In this document: one piece after another, positions 26,965-42,308 of the stretch
How positions within the stretch are numbered: position 1 is the first letter of the stretch
Layout: the number at the start of each line of letters is the position of its first letter
NCBI RefSeq assembly: GCF_004295485.1
Contig: NZ_CP036164.1
Location: forward strand, 2,852,001-2,916,000
DNA length: 64,000 nucleotides
Direction: 5' to 3'
From: Janibacter limosus
GTDB taxonomy: Bacteria; Actinomycetota; Actinomycetes; Actinomycetales; Dermatophilaceae
Translations under genes and position numbers: made by a program
Notes under the pieces: model-generated
Told to the model about the DNA's origin: nothing
Database searches by the model: none
Seen by the model: only the letters and a program-made list of their open reading frames with translations

Positions 26965-27474
26965 TCAGTCGGCCACGACGAGGGCGGTGGCGATCGCGGC
27001 CGCGCCCTCACCCCGACCCGTCAGACCCAGCCCGTCGGTCGTCGTCCCGCTGACGCTGACGGGGGCACCGCACGCGCTGGACATCACCTGCTGGGCCTCA
27101 TCACGCCGGGTCCCGATCTTCGGGCGGTTGCCGATGACTTGCACCGCGATGTTGCCGATCTCGTACCCGGCCTCGCGCACCAGCCGGGCGGCCTCGGTGA
27201 GCAGGGTGACTCCCGAGGCGCCGGAGAGCTCCGGCCGACCGGTCCCGAAGTGCTGCCCCAGGTCGCCGATCCCCGCCGCCGCGAAGAGCGCGTCACAGGC
27301 GGCGTGGCAGGCGACGTCGGCATCCGAGTGCCCCTCGAGCCCGACCTCGCCGGGCCAGAGCAGGCCGCCGACCCAGAGCTCACGCCCCGAGTCGGCCGCA
27401 GCGAAGGCATGGACGTCGACACCGATCCCGGTCCGCGGCAGCCGGTCGACCCTGCCGGCGTCATTCACAGTCAT
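26965..27474 (-). CDS. ispF: 2-C-methyl-D-erythritol 2,4-cyclodiphosphate synthase
   Basis: A 169-residue MEP-pathway enzyme. Metal ligands in GIGVDVHAF and [24 protein letters not shown]; the C-terminal substrate loop [18 protein letters not shown]. It makes MEcPP for isoprenoid precursors. In many actinobacteria ispF follows ispD directly; here they are separated by a convergent flavin monooxygenase gene and a repeat array. Confidence 0.94.
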
Positions 27475-27495
27475 GGCGACAGTCTCCCAGCCGGG

Positions 27496-28581
27496 ATGGA
27501 GTCCGGGCGCGTCGGCGTTGCACCCACCGTGGAGGCTCTCGACTCGATCGTCATCGGCGCCGGGCAGGCAGGGCTGTCCACGTCCTTCCACCTACGGCGC
27601 CTCGGGATCGGGCACGTCGTGCTCGACGCGAATGAGGGCCCGGGTGGCGCGTGGCAGCACCGATGGGACTCGTTGACCATGGCCGATGTCCACGGCGTCG
27701 CGGACCTGCCCGATGCCGCGGCGCCCGGCGGGTCGCACGACCGCGCCAGCGAGGTCATCGCCTGCTGGTTCGACGACTACGAGGAGACCCACGACCTGCC
27801 GGTCCTGCGACCCGTGCGCGTGGACTCGGTCACGAACGACGACGGCCTGCTCGTCGTGCACTCGGGGTCGCGCACCTGGACCACGCGGACACTGGTCAAT
27901 GCGACGGGGACGTGGACCCATCCCTTCGTCCCGACCTACCCGGGCCAGCGCGACTTCACCGGGGAGCAGTGGCACACGGTCGCCTACCCGGGAGCGGAGC
28001 ACTTCCGCGGCAAGCGCGTCGTCGTGGTCGGCGGCGGGGCCTCGGCGGTCCAGCTCATCGGGGAGATCGCACCCATCGCCAACGTCACCTGGGTGACCCG
28101 GCGGCCGCCGGTGTGGAGCGAGGAGTTCTCCGGCAGGGAGGCGATCGAGCTCGTCGAGCGCCGCGTGCGCGAAGGGAGACCCCCCGCCAGCGTCGTCTCG
28201 GTCACCGGCCTGCGCCTGCGGCCGCAGGAGATGGCCGCGGCGCGCACCGGGGTCTACGAGCGGCGGCGTGCGATGTTCGAGCGGATCGAGAGGGACGCCG
28301 TGCGCTGGGCCGACGGCAGTGTCGAGCGGGCCGACGCGATCCTCTGGGCGACCGGCTTCCGCCCGGCCGTGCGCCATCTCGCGCCCCTGGGACTGCGCAG
28401 CCCGCAGGGCGGGATCGCGCTGCTCCCGGGCACTCGGGACGTGCAGACCTCCGTCACGAGCGCTCTCGACCCTCGGGTCCAGCTCGTGGGCTACGGCCCG
28501 TCGGCGAGCACGATCGGTGGCAACCGGGCCGGCCGCGCCGCAGCCTTGGCCGTGCGCCACCACCTGGCCGCACGACCTTAA
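27496..28581 (+). CDS. Flavin-containing monooxygenase-type oxidoreductase
   Basis: A 361-residue flavoprotein. FAD-binding Rossmann motif [18 protein letters not shown], a second nucleotide-binding motif [16 protein letters not shown] and the FMO/BVMO signature ILWATGFRP. It resembles the CzcO/YUCCA-like small FMOs; the substrate is unknown. A GTG at 27529 is an alternative start nearer the FAD motif and would leave a less cramped 54-bp gap to the divergent ispF. Its stop codon TAA (28579-28581) lies inside the core of the first 31-bp repeat. The gene is an insertion in the ispD-ispF unit. Confidence 0.85.
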
Positions 28582-28683
28582 GGAGATGCGGCTGGCCTGC
28601 GCACGACCTTAAGGAGATGCGGCTGGCCTGCGCACGACCTTAAGGAGATGCGGCTGGCCTGCGCACGACCTTAAGGAGATGCG
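28569..28683. repeat. 31-bp tandem repeat array 1 (four copies)
   Basis: Four identical copies (28569, 28600, 28631, 28662) of a 22-bp dyad, CGCA-CGA-CCTTAAGG-AGA-TGCG, separated by the 9-bp linker GCTGGCCTG. The outer arms and the 8-bp core are palindromic; the two inner triplets are not. It fills the whole gap between the convergent monooxygenase and ispD genes, and the TTAA of the first and last copies supplies the TAA stop codon of each. The same dyad recurs in array 2 at 41094-41239. Confidence 0.97.
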
Positions 28684-29342
28684 GTCAGGAGTCGCTCGGC
28701 CCGGGCCAGGTCGTCCGGCGTCGTCACCTTGAGCGCCCGGTGATCGCCCTCGACCACGAGCACGTCGTGCCCCAGTGCCTCGACGAGCGCTGCGTCGTCG
28801 GTGGCTGCGGCGCCGGCGGCGTGTGCGGCCGTGAGCACCGATCGGACGAAGCCCTGCGGGGTCTGCACCGCCCGCAGCGACTCCCGCAGCGGGGTGTCGA
28901 CGATGAGCCCGCCCGCGTCGACGACCTTGACGGTGTCGACGACCGCGACCCCGGGCACCGCACCGGCCACGCCAGCGGCCAGGGCTGCGAGCACCCGCTC
29001 GAAGACCGCGACGGGTGTCAGGCACCGGGCCGCGTCGTGGACGAGCACCCGCTCGACCCGGTCGGACAGCGCGGCCAGACCTGCCGAGACCGACTCGGAG
29101 CGTTTGGCCCCTCCCGGCACGACCACGGCCCGGGCGCCCGACAGGTCGAGGCCCGCCACGATCGAGCGCGCCTCGTCGACCAGCTCCCGCGGGACGACCA
29201 CGACGACCTCACCGGGCCTGGCGGCGAGCACCCCGCGCAGCGCATGCTCGAGGATCGTCACCCCCGCCAGCTCGACGAAGGCCTTGGGTCGCTCGGCTCC
29301 CAACCGCGTGCCCGACCCGGCAGCGACGACGACGACGCCCAC
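28671..29342 (-). CDS. ispD: 2-C-methyl-D-erythritol 4-phosphate cytidylyltransferase
   Basis: A 223-residue MEP-pathway nucleotidyltransferase: VVVVAAGSGTRLGAERPKAF (CTP loop), VLVHDAARCLTP, LRAVQTPQGF and ATDDAALVEALGHDV. The start is uncertain: no ATG is available; the GTG at 29342 puts the protein right at the first strand, but it lies inside a 16-bp inverted repeat (29330-29367) and has no good ribosome site. Translation coupled to carD from an unusual codon further upstream is possible. The last codons and TAA come from repeat array 1. Confidence 0.88.
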   Translation of the reverse strand: MGVVVVAAGSGTRLGAERPKAFVELAGVTILEHALRGVLAARPGEVVVVVPRELVDEARSIVAGLDLSGARAVVVPGGAKRSESVSAGLAALSDRVERVLVHDAARCLTPVAVFERVLAALAAGVAGAVPGVAVVDTVKVVDAGGLIVDTPLRESLRAVQTPQGFVRSVLTAAHAAGAAATDDAALVEALGHDVLVVEGDHRALKVTTPDDLARAERLLTASP

Positions 29343-39841: not shown

Positions 39842-40468
39842 TCAGTCGCCGACCTTCTCGGCGGCCGTGTCGGCAGCCTTGGCCGTCTGGGCGGCGGTGG
39901 TCTTGGCGGCCGTGGCGGTCGACTTGGTCGCGGTGCGGGTGCGGGTCGCGGCCTTCTTGGCGGTGGTGCGGGTGCTCTTGGCGGCCGTGGTGGTGCGCTT
40001 GGCGGAGGTGGAGACGGCCTTCTTCGCCTTGGCGGTGTCGACCTTGACGTCGACGTCCACGGAGTCCTTGACGGCCTCGGCGGCCTTGACGGCCTCCTTG
40101 CGACCGATGGTCAGGGTGCGCTTGGCGGACGCCTCGACGTCAGCGACGGCCTTGCGGACGGTGGTGACGACACCCTTGCCCAGCGCGACGGTGGCCTCGG
40201 CCTGGCCGACGAGGTCCTTGGTGGCCTTCTGGTTCTTGATGCGGGTGACGAGCGACTCGCCGCGCTTGGTCAGGTCGGCGTAGTACGCCTGGGCGTCGGC
40301 CGGCGCGGCCTTGACGCGGGCCTGGACCTTCTTGGGCTCCAGCTCGGCGCGCAGGGCGGCGATCTGGGTGGTGTACCCCCGGAAGGTCTCGACGGTGAGG
40401 TCGGTGGCGCCGATGGTGGCGTAGGTCTGGTCGGTGACGACCTTCTTGACGGTGGTGGTGACGCTCAT
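39842..40468 (-). CDS. HbhA-like protein with histone-like Lys/Ala/Thr-rich tail
   Basis: A 208-residue protein. Residues 1-125 form a long amphipathic helical region (VETFRGYTTQIAALRAELE, AYYADLTKRGESLVTRIKNQ) resembling mycobacterial heparin-binding haemagglutinin, including the 'YxxLxxRGE' segment. Residues 130-208 are a Lys/Ala/Thr/Arg-rich tail. The neighbour order XRE regulator - HbhA is that of Rv0474-Rv0475. The equivalents bind DNA or heparin and may sit in the envelope. No signal peptide is seen. Confidence 0.78.
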   Translation of the reverse strand: MSVTTTVKKVVTDQTYATIGATDLTVETFRGYTTQIAALRAELEPKKVQARVKAAPADAQAYYADLTKRGESLVTRIKNQKATKDLVGQAEATVALGKGVVTTVRKAVADVEASAKRTLTIGRKEAVKAAEAVKDSVDVDVKVDTAKAKKAVSTSAKRTTTAAKSTRTTAKKAATRTRTATKSTATAAKTTAAQTAKAADTAAEKVGD

Positions 40469-41019
40469 GAGGTTCTCCTTGGGGTGGTACTCGTCGATGA
40501 CGAGGTCGTGGCTCCACGTCCGGCGCGTGCCGGCGTGGACTTCGAGCCCGACGACGCTGCCGAACCCTTCGTGCTGCCCGCGGACTTCTTCTTCGCGGTG
40601 GTCTTGGTGGCGCCCTTCTTGGCGGCGCGCTTGGGTGCCGTGGTCGCGGACCCGCCGACGAAGGACTCGTAGATCTCGAGCATCGTCTGGCGCTGGCGCG
40701 ACGTGAGGGCGGGGTCGGCCGCGATGGCCGCCCGGGTCGTGGCCGCGGCCTCGGCGGCCGCGTCCTTGGGGTCGAGGAGCCCGGCCTGGACGTAGAGGGT
40801 CTCGGCCGAGATCGACAGGCCCTTGCCGATCTGCTGGAGGATCTCGGCGCTCGGCCGCTTGATCCCCCGCTCGATCTGGCTCAGGTAGGGGTTGGAGATC
40901 CCGGCGATGGCGGACAGCTGTCGCAGGGACAGCTTCTTGGTGAGTCGCTGCTCGCGCAGGTAGTCACCGAGGTTGTTGCCCAGGTTGCCCGGGAGGGCGT
41001 CCAGCGGGTTCTTCGACAT
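40465..41019 (-). CDS. XRE-family regulator with Lys/Ala/Thr-rich tail
   Basis: A 184-residue protein. The HTH_3 domain spans residues 15-75 (LGDYLREQRLTKKLSLRQLS, AGISNPYLSQIERGIKRPSA, ILQQIGKGLSISAETLYVQ). A helical middle (LTSRQRQTMLEIYESFVGG) leads to a basic low-complexity tail rich in Lys, Ala, Thr and Ser, like that of the protein encoded downstream. It overlaps the HbhA-like gene by ATGA. Array 2 of the 31-bp repeat ends 75 bp before its start codon. Confidence 0.88.
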   Translation of the reverse strand: MSKNPLDALPGNLGNNLGDYLREQRLTKKLSLRQLSAIAGISNPYLSQIERGIKRPSAEILQQIGKGLSISAETLYVQAGLLDPKDAAAEAAATTRAAIAADPALTSRQRQTMLEIYESFVGGSATTAPKRAAKKGATKTTAKKKSAGSTKGSAASSGSKSTPARAGRGATTSSSTSTTPRRTS

Positions 41020-41093: not shown

Positions 41094-41239
41094 CGCACGA
41101 CCTTAAGGAGATGCGGCTGGCGTGCGCACGACCTTAAGGAGATGCGGCTGGCGTGCGCACGACCTTAAGGAGATGCGGCTGGCGTGCGCACGACCTTAAG
41201 GAGATGCGGCTGGCGTGCGCACGACCTTAAGGAGATGCG
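41094..41239. repeat. 31-bp tandem repeat array 2 (five copies)
   Basis: Five identical copies (41094, 41125, 41156, 41187, 41218) of the same 22-bp dyad as array 1 (CGCA-CGA-CCTTAAGG-AGA-TGCG), with linker GCTGGCGTG. The linker differs from array 1 (GCTGGCCTG) at one base in every copy. The array lies between the end of ygfZ (41289) and the XRE promoter, both on the minus strand, so unlike array 1 it is between co-oriented genes. Confidence 0.97.
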
Positions 41240-41288: not shown

Positions 41289-42308
41289 TCAGCGGGGGAC
41301 GATCGCGGTCTGTGCCGCAGCCACATCGGGCGCGACGAGCAGGTCGGCCACGTCGTCGGTGTTGCGCTTGAGCATCGCGAGCGCGATCGGGCCGTCCTCG
41401 TGGTGCCGACCGACGGAGGTGATCCGCCCGACGACCTTGTCGCCGAGGGAGACCTCGGCCCCGACCTCGGGGAGGGTGTGTCCCGACCCGTCGAGGTGGA
41501 GGAAGGCCAGCCGGCGCGGCGGGCGACCGAGGTTGTGGACGCGAGCGACCGTCTCCTGACCGCGGTAGCACCCCTTGTGCAGGTGAACGGCGGTGCGCAG
41601 CCAGTCGACCTCGTGAGCGATCGTGCGGTGGTCGCTCTCGGCGCCCAGCCGTGGGCGCCAGGCGGCGATCCGCAGGGCCTCTGCGGCCCAGGTGCCGACC
41701 AGCTCGCGGTCGCCCACCGCGGCGGCGACCTCGTCGACCGGGACGATCACCTCGCGCCACCGGCGGCCGTGCGCCGGGTGGTCCTGCGGCTCGGGACCGT
41801 AGAGCGCGGTGTCACCGACCACGCGCGGCCACGCGTCGACCCACGTCGGAGGCTCGCCCTCTCCCCCTTCGCGGTCGATGCTCTCCCCCAGGACGGCGAA
41901 GCGGTCGGACACGTCCGCGACCTCGACCCGGAGCATGAAGCGCATCGAGTCCAGCCAGGCAGTCAGCGCAGGCGCCGTCCCGGGCTCGACCGTGATCCAC
42001 GTCGTCTCGCCGTCGTCGACGAGGTGCAGCGCGTGCTCGACATGCCCCTTGGGGGTGAGGACGAGCGACTCGGCGGAGGTGCGGGGCGCCAGCCCGGCCA
42101 GCTGCTGGGTGGTGAGGGAGTGCAACCACGACAGCCGGTCCGCTCCGGTGACCGTGACGACCCCCCTGTGGGAGAGGTCCACGACGCCCAGCCCCTCGGA
42201 GAGCAACCGCTGCTCGCGCATCGGGTCCCCGTAGTGCGCGGCGACGCCTGAGTCGATCCCGTCGCCGGGGACGGCGCCGGGGGCCTGCAGCAATGAGGAA
42301 GCGGTCAT
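41289..42308 (-). CDS. ygfZ: Folate-binding YgfZ/GcvT-like protein
   Basis: A 339-residue aminomethyltransferase-like protein. LSHRGVVTVTGADRLSWLHS near the N-terminus and the YgfZ signature KGCYRGQETVARVHNLG with its Cys. YgfZ proteins bind tetrahydrofolate and support Fe-S cluster enzyme maturation. Monocistronic-looking, divergent from the LCP gene. Confidence 0.92.
   Translation of the reverse strand: MTASSLLQAPGAVPGDGIDSGVAAHYGDPMREQRLLSEGLGVVDLSHRGVVTVTGADRLSWLHSLTTQQLAGLAPRTSAESLVLTPKGHVEHALHLVDDGETTWITVEPGTAPALTAWLDSMRFMLRVEVADVSDRFAVLGESIDREGGEGEPPTWVDAWPRVVGDTALYGPEPQDHPAHGRRWREVIVPVDEVAAAVGDRELVGTWAAEALRIAAWRPRLGAESDHRTIAHEVDWLRTAVHLHKGCYRGQETVARVHNLGRPPRRLAFLHLDGSGHTLPEVGAEVSLGDKVVGRITSVGRHHEDGPIALAMLKRNTDDVADLLVAPDVAAAQTAIVPR

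Follow-up and report, generated by a model that had tools for sequence, protein, structure and literature searches.

The gap between a flavin-dependent monooxygenase-like gene (fmo) and ispD of Janibacter limosus holds four identical 22-bp palindromic units, and similar tandem arrays recur at gene ends throughout the chromosome. The array is best read as a member of a REP-like, RAYT-less, mainly head-to-tail gene-end family that is probably bound as DNA by a putative dimeric protein. Of the readings weighed, a DNA-bound dimer at gene-end arrays is placed first (probability about 0.42), a selfish or neutral repeat second, and an RNA hairpin third.

The Array Between fmo and ispD

The DNA analyzed is a 64-kb stretch (the window) of J. 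limosus assembly GCF_004295485.1, contig NZ_CP036164.1, positions 2,852,001–2,916,000; the genome it comes from is designated G000. Genes were called by a codon-usage script, and Pfam was used to assign product families. The features concerned are as follows (window positions).

27250..28581, plus strand: flavin-dependent monooxygenase-like gene, start codon uncertain (ORF; Pyr_redox_3 and FMO-like Pfam hits)
28569..28590, no strand: unit 1, A half CGCACGACC + core CCTTAAGG + B half GGAGATGCG (exact match)
28579-28581, plus strand: TAA stop of the monooxygenase gene, supplied by the core of unit 1
28600..28621, no strand: unit 2, identical to unit 1
28631..28652, no strand: unit 3, identical to unit 1
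28662..28683, no strand: unit 4, identical to unit 1
28671-28673, minus strand: TAA stop of ispD, supplied by the core of unit 4
28671..29342, minus strand: ispD, ending in unit 4 (PF01128, E-value 1.7e-61)
41094..41239, no strand: second array, five units, period 31, between minus-strand genes at 40465-41019 and 41289-42308

The repeat CGCACGACCTTAAGGAGATGCG occurs four times at 28569-28683 with a period of 31 bp, as three full 31-bp repeats and a last 23-bp part, and the 22-bp unit follows the plan YGCA-N3-8-bp core-N3-TGCR. The first-pass annotation had described four exact copies whose outermost members provide the stop codons of both genes, and this description holds: all four units are identical, the TAA of the monooxygenase gene lies in the first core, and that of ispD in the last. 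Both products end in proline, as had been stated (..LAARP for the monooxygenase and ..LLTASP for the ispD product). An assembly artefact, which the same annotation had named as fatal to its observation, is very unlikely, since the assembly consists of one contig with 99.99% completeness and the same family is found in independent assemblies of other species.

The core CCTTAAGG is present nine times in the window, four times between fmo and ispD and five times at 41094-41239, compared to 0.05 occurrences expected from dinucleotide shuffles. The entire 3.545-Mb genome contains 206 copies of CCTTAAGG versus seven of the backward control word, which bears out the earlier suggestion of an amplified element, and its DNA dyad is likewise supported. 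Most of these copies are arranged in tandem arrays with a period of about 31 bp, which comprise from one to nine and mostly from two to six units in the 48 stretches and the window that were read. The reading of arrays is complete up to 1.516 Mb (first 100 of the 206 cores) and relies on sequence matches beyond that point, where some arrays are left unread; in total, 172 CTTAAG units were read and 53 clusters tabulated.

Unit Structure and Spacing

Two half-sites make up the unit, A (CGCACGACC) and B (CGCATCTCC or CGCATTTCC), and 155 of the 172 CTTAAG units are AB, six BB, four AA, and seven other. The feet CGCA and TGCG are conserved to 90-100% per position, and the middle triplets pair poorly in the 155 AB hybrids. 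Variant cores, CTCAAG or CTTGAG, adjoin intact ones. Within arrays, the orientation is mainly head-to-tail, with a few mixed cases (e.g., L013 and L039), and among the 17 tandem gaps the A-to-B orientation is that of the genes in ten, the opposite in six, and tied in one. Based on the poor pairing of the triplets and on the direction of the arrays in tandem gaps, a DNA-bound dimer was placed ahead of the other readings.

The centre-to-centre spacing in G000 is 30-32 bp in 153 of 168 adjacent pairs and 40-42 bp in eight, and the relatives have spacings of 31-32 and 42-43 bp. The spacing scan of G000 and the relatives found no pair at 33-39 or 44-50 bp, while a plain count of CTTAAG yields one spacing of 35 bp, in L039, where the last unit carries an extra base. 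Outside 29-33 bp, 19 distinct spacings were recorded, 14 of which fall into the 40-43-bp class. The clustering at 30-32 and 40-43 bp suggests that the units lie on one helical face, to which one 109-bp and one 35-bp spacing are misfits; a helical period of 11 fits equally well as 10.5, and the 40-43-bp class could instead represent a second ancestral unit length.

Position Relative to Genes

Enrichment of the arrays between convergent genes and at gene ends, which the first-pass annotation had proposed looking for, is evident. Among the 50 clusters outside genes, 29 lie in convergent, 17 in tandem, and four in divergent gaps, compared to a background of 15-16% convergent pairs (11/68 gene pairs in the window and 55/371 in 400 kb of the relative G011). 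For the counts of orientation and distance, the three in-gene clusters were dropped, and the IS transposase genes at L015, L020, L030, and L035 were not taken as neighbours. The fully covered part of the genome, up to 1.516 Mb, accounts for 31 clusters (16 convergent, 11 tandem, and four divergent). In G011, a unit was found in 17/109 convergent gaps (20-200 bp), 1/126 divergent gaps, and 5/164 tandem gaps, the last from a half sample.

The contact between genes and arrays is close at 3' ends. Out of 75 3' ends facing an array, 19 have their stop codon in the first core, and in another 38 it lies 0-16 bp short of the array; by comparison, 19 of 25 facing 5' ends are at least 50 bp away. Wherever a gene end runs into an array (19 cases), its stop codon is in the first core, compared to about one third predicted for a random frame; the frame is thus selected or inherited. 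In 22 of the 29 convergent gaps, the sequence outside the array amounts to 25 bp at most on either side; thus, the array usually makes up the entire gap.

The annotation had set arrays at random positions inside genes against its own reading. With 50 of 53 clusters outside genes, the gene-end placement stands in the main; the three clusters inside genes show that the rule has exceptions. These arrays lie inside reading frames that run through them with no stop.

L015:9460-9553: array inside a reading frame, in an ABC-transporter gene
L054:1669-1774: array inside a reading frame
L011:1606-1717: array inside a reading frame

An in-gene cluster with 42-bp spacing keeps the reading frame, and one with CTTGAG cores carries no stop. 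The in-frame array of L054 is also conserved in G011, where its period is again 42 bp.

Dialects and Shared Sites in Related Genomes

In 11 of the 16 Janibacter genomes, the general pattern GCANNNNCYYRRGNNNNTGC is at least twice as frequent as its backward control. In the other five (G002, G003, G005, G006, and G010) it is at or below the control, which indicates that the array family is dispensable. The sequence of the unit differs between genomes in the form of dialects.

G011: CATTGCC-CTAG/ATAG
G008: CATTSCC-CTAG
G009: CAAAACC-CTAG
G007: CAGGAGCC-TAAG-CAGTTGC
G001: CAACTGCC-CGGG
G012: CATTTCC-CCGG

Several forms may occur in one genome, e.g., G000 has six CCTAGG-type units, one of them beside a CTTAAG unit in L022. 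Beyond the genus, doublets of CCTTAAGG were found in only five of 186 genomes of the family, four of them Janibacter and the fifth with a single hit in unrelated surroundings. The CCTAGG form was detected in six of 396 genomes of the order, of which only two, both among the three Janibacter genomes in that set, had more than a single copy. A two-unit pattern with a period of 28-30, which does not capture the typical 31-32, was present in seven of 186 family genomes, all of them Janibacter. So far, and for the searched core patterns, the array family is limited to the genus.

The gap between fmo and ispD was compared in 13 relatives, leaving out G001 (alignment confined to the ispD side) and G015 (contig begins inside the array). 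A similar palindrome is present in eight of them, with divergent feet in G010, and none was seen in G002, G003, G004, G005, and G014. In G011 and G010, both fmo and ispD also stop inside the palindrome core. The earlier alternative, insertion of the repeat across both gene ends or trimming of the genes to the repeat, is therefore too simple. Since other palindromes occupy the orthologous gaps, the site seems to predate the CTTAAG dialect, and variation is confined to a few C-terminal residues.

Sixteen G000 array sites could be aligned in 1.2 Mb of G011, and an element is present at 12 of them. Six carry G011's own dialect (L025, L026, L028, L056, W1, and W2), and six retain A/B halves with mostly altered cores (L019, L023, L024, L051, L054, and L055), the CTTAAG core being kept at L019 only; the remaining four sites (L009, L010, L021, and L027) are empty in G011. 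At L054, the spacer and the 42-bp period are kept and all cores differ; at L051, edge units and spacer are kept; at W2, both outer unit boundaries match, with different triplets and core. One gap contains units in five species (G007, G008, G009, G011, and G014). Four forms are clearly distinct among them, the units of G008 and G011 being alike except for a single core base. Sampling of six relatives gave 66 mutually dependent element-to-gap comparisons, with a unit in 32 and none in 34; G005 had a unit in one of 13. The simplest history would be that an ancestral element was present at the site and that its sequence was afterwards rewritten in parallel with the rest of the genome. At L025, L026, and L056, where the boundaries mismatch, separate arrivals at a common hot spot may have occurred instead.

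Long inverted repeats were seen by eye in G005 and G014 at gaps that hold arrays elsewhere (L231 and L236, orthologous to the gap of the window array at 41094-41239 and to that of another array element). They are possibly another gene-end element.

Alternative Explanations

The spacers between units are mostly 8-10 bp long and usually common to an array and different between arrays; accordingly, local tandem duplication seems to be how arrays grow, and the exact sharing of three among 40 spacers between loci points to some transfer. Such growth and sharing would be in line with selfish or neutral REP-like repeats, spread by duplication, conversion, or a transposase and situated at 3' ends as the least harmful place. 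The very uneven copy number within Janibacter and the uptake of insertion sequences by the arrays also speak for this explanation, as does the finding, reported in PMC3733652, that REPs elsewhere are likewise found no more than 20 bp from convergent 3' ends. It is nevertheless somewhat unlikely: the sites are common to species while their sequence changes in concert, a similar 31/42-bp spacing is found in several dialects, and first-core stops are far above the random expectation.

The transcribed units might alternatively function as RNA hairpins, i.e., as bidirectional intrinsic terminators or as stabilizers of mRNA 3' ends. AA and BB units, as well as the G011 and G009 dialects, are predicted to form perfect stems of 10 bp closed by a 4-base loop, and the preference of the first-pass annotation for a protein site over an RNA hairpin is weakened to that extent; the part of it that stands relies on the 30-32/40-43-bp spacing and on the poor triplets of 155/172 units. 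These AB hybrids fold at only -7.2 kcal/mol, compared to -18 to -19 kcal/mol for AA and BB units, hybrids of the same type occur in G007 and G014, and RNA function leaves the 31/42-bp spacing unexplained. The predicted RNA folding of whole arrays is strong (mean z of -6.0 and -7.2 for the two strands), values that are inflated by repetitiveness. No T-run after the units was noticed by eye in the G000 stretches read. A crude stem finder gave a stem score of at least 8 in 3/6 unit-free convergent gaps of the window and in 25/92 of those of G011, and the same score in 17/159 tandem and 8/125 divergent gaps of G011. As inverted repeats are present in some other convergent gaps, the arrays may stand in for terminators. 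Overall, the hairpin explanation is improbable.

It is very improbable that the repeats are mainly targets or scars of insertion sequences, even though all seven ISL3-type transposase genes of G000 lie inside CCTTAAGG cores. Six identical ISL3-type copies are inserted in these cores with 8-bp duplications, and a second ISL3-type element behaves likewise. In G008, a transposase-bearing insertion, which we take to encode an IS481-like protein, occupies a CCTAGG core. On the other hand, ISL3 elements of G006, G008, G013, and G015, counted only where their ends were located, generated 8-bp duplications (e.g., CGAAAAGG, ATTTAAGT, and GGTTTCGT) at A/T-containing targets, in five cases outside any palindrome. 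In G000, only six of about 50 arrays bear an ISL3 element (L035, L015, L023, L030, L052, and L020, one of them with two copies), and G011 carries the array family and gave no ISL3 match. Given the targets outside palindromes, together with G011, insertion sequences were rejected as the origin of the arrays, which look like A/T-centred sites that attract insertions within a G+C-rich genome and not like products of the insertion sequences.

Comparison with Known Repeats

The literature describes REP elements as extragenic palindromes near 3' ends, often between convergent genes (PMC3733652), and as targets of insertion sequences (PMC1525189). The IS families named in the latter text include IS3, IS110, IS4, IS256, and IS5, with ISL3 absent from it. 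The Janibacter arrays share with REP/BIME the short imperfect palindromes, tens to hundreds of copies, the extragenic location near 3' ends, often convergent, the attraction of insertion sequences, and the division into species-specific families; as a palindromic repeat of 20-40 bp with many extragenic copies, they are represented by 206 cores and by 50/53 clusters outside genes. In contrast to REP/BIME, which have a GTAG or CGTC tag at one foot and mostly form head-to-head dimers, the Janibacter units have the feet CGCA and TGCG, a 4-base loop or no loop, and a mainly head-to-tail arrangement with a period of about 31 or 42 bp. A Y1/RAYT transposase (PF01797) was found in none of 16 Janibacter genomes, with the control positive in 5/14, and a transposase of this kind was rejected as the driver. 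Having no tag, no Y1 transposase, and no paired orientation, the family was filed as a RAYT-less variant in REP-like places. CGTC-tagged REPs are likewise palindromic repeats without a dedicated transposase, but differ, according to PMC3733652, in the tagged foot and tail consensus, the mostly head-to-head dimers, and the rarity of clusters.

Several other systems were considered, of which the arrays of cooperative-dimer operators or iterons, with dyad sites at near whole helical turns, resemble the unit spacing. They belong to one origin or promoter, whereas dozens of chromosomal gene-end loci are involved here and the binder is putative. CRISPR arrays have unique spacers of 25-40 bp, in contrast to the mostly 8-10 bp shared within an array here. 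Searches against phage and plasmid records gave no match at an E-value of 1e-5, and no exact 20-mer was found in viral contigs; a phage or plasmid origin was rejected on these grounds. An Rfam search of the window at gathering scores detected only a cobalamin riboswitch (RF00174, 60293-60469, minus strand) and tRNA, with no match to the arrays, and no description of this array family was recognised among the matches listed in open-licence literature.

DNA uptake sequences are known as short words with a dialect for each species, and two of them in inverted orientation can lie at gene ends. They differ from the Janibacter half-sites, which show no enrichment on their own in the window: CGCATCTCC is found only in arrays (9/9), and CGCACGACC occurs six times outside arrays, near the 3.9 expected. 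Based on these counts, the idea that the half-sites are uptake or Chi-like words scattered through the sequence was rejected for the window. As a separate observation, the 9-mer CGAAGGGGG is present 33 times in the window compared to 0.98 expected (e.g., at 2674, 4441, 12035, and 58388), 189 times in 400 kb of G011 versus five for the reversed control, and likewise in five other Janibacter samples, including the array-poor G005. This Chi-like or uptake-like word has no strong strand bias.

The genes beside the densest cluster of arrays (L015 and L016) code for an aminotransferase, a holin-like membrane protein, an AbiEi/REase-like protein, an E1 dehydrogenase, a solute-binding protein, and ABC transporters, among which Pfam singled out no driver gene. 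At L016:3359-4288 (minus strand), an AbiEi-antitoxin-like part is combined with an MTES_1575 nuclease-like part (just under the cut-off), between two arrays in divergent gaps.

Proposed Function and Significance

Under the DNA-bound dimer reading, each unit would be a site for a dimeric protein that recognizes two slightly different half-sites, and neighbouring dimers would align on one face of the helix. The bound array, extending from stop to stop, would most likely form a direction-independent block that ends transcription of both genes, a role at converging transcription ends to which the location of the arrays points, and the TAA or TAG of the core would additionally terminate translation. 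The dialects may shift in concert because the sites follow the specificity of the binder and/or because tandem duplication and gene conversion spread the units. The full account, in which a genus-specific binder marks inherited gene-end sites, phased arrays stop transcription and translation in both directions, and the dialect is rewritten in concert at fixed positions with no RAYT-type transposase, is put forward as rather doubtful; it would amount to rapid co-evolution, in a bacterium, of a single binder with its dispersed set of sites.

If true, the family would be an actinobacterial counterpart of REP elements in which many sites are kept and the sequence dialect is swapped between sister species. 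Concerted evolution of dispersed non-coding repeats that have no known transposase would then become directly testable, and the arrays would offer a test of gene-end palindromes as selfish elements versus working end-of-gene signals. It would also explain why stop codons and insertion sequences are found within the repeats.
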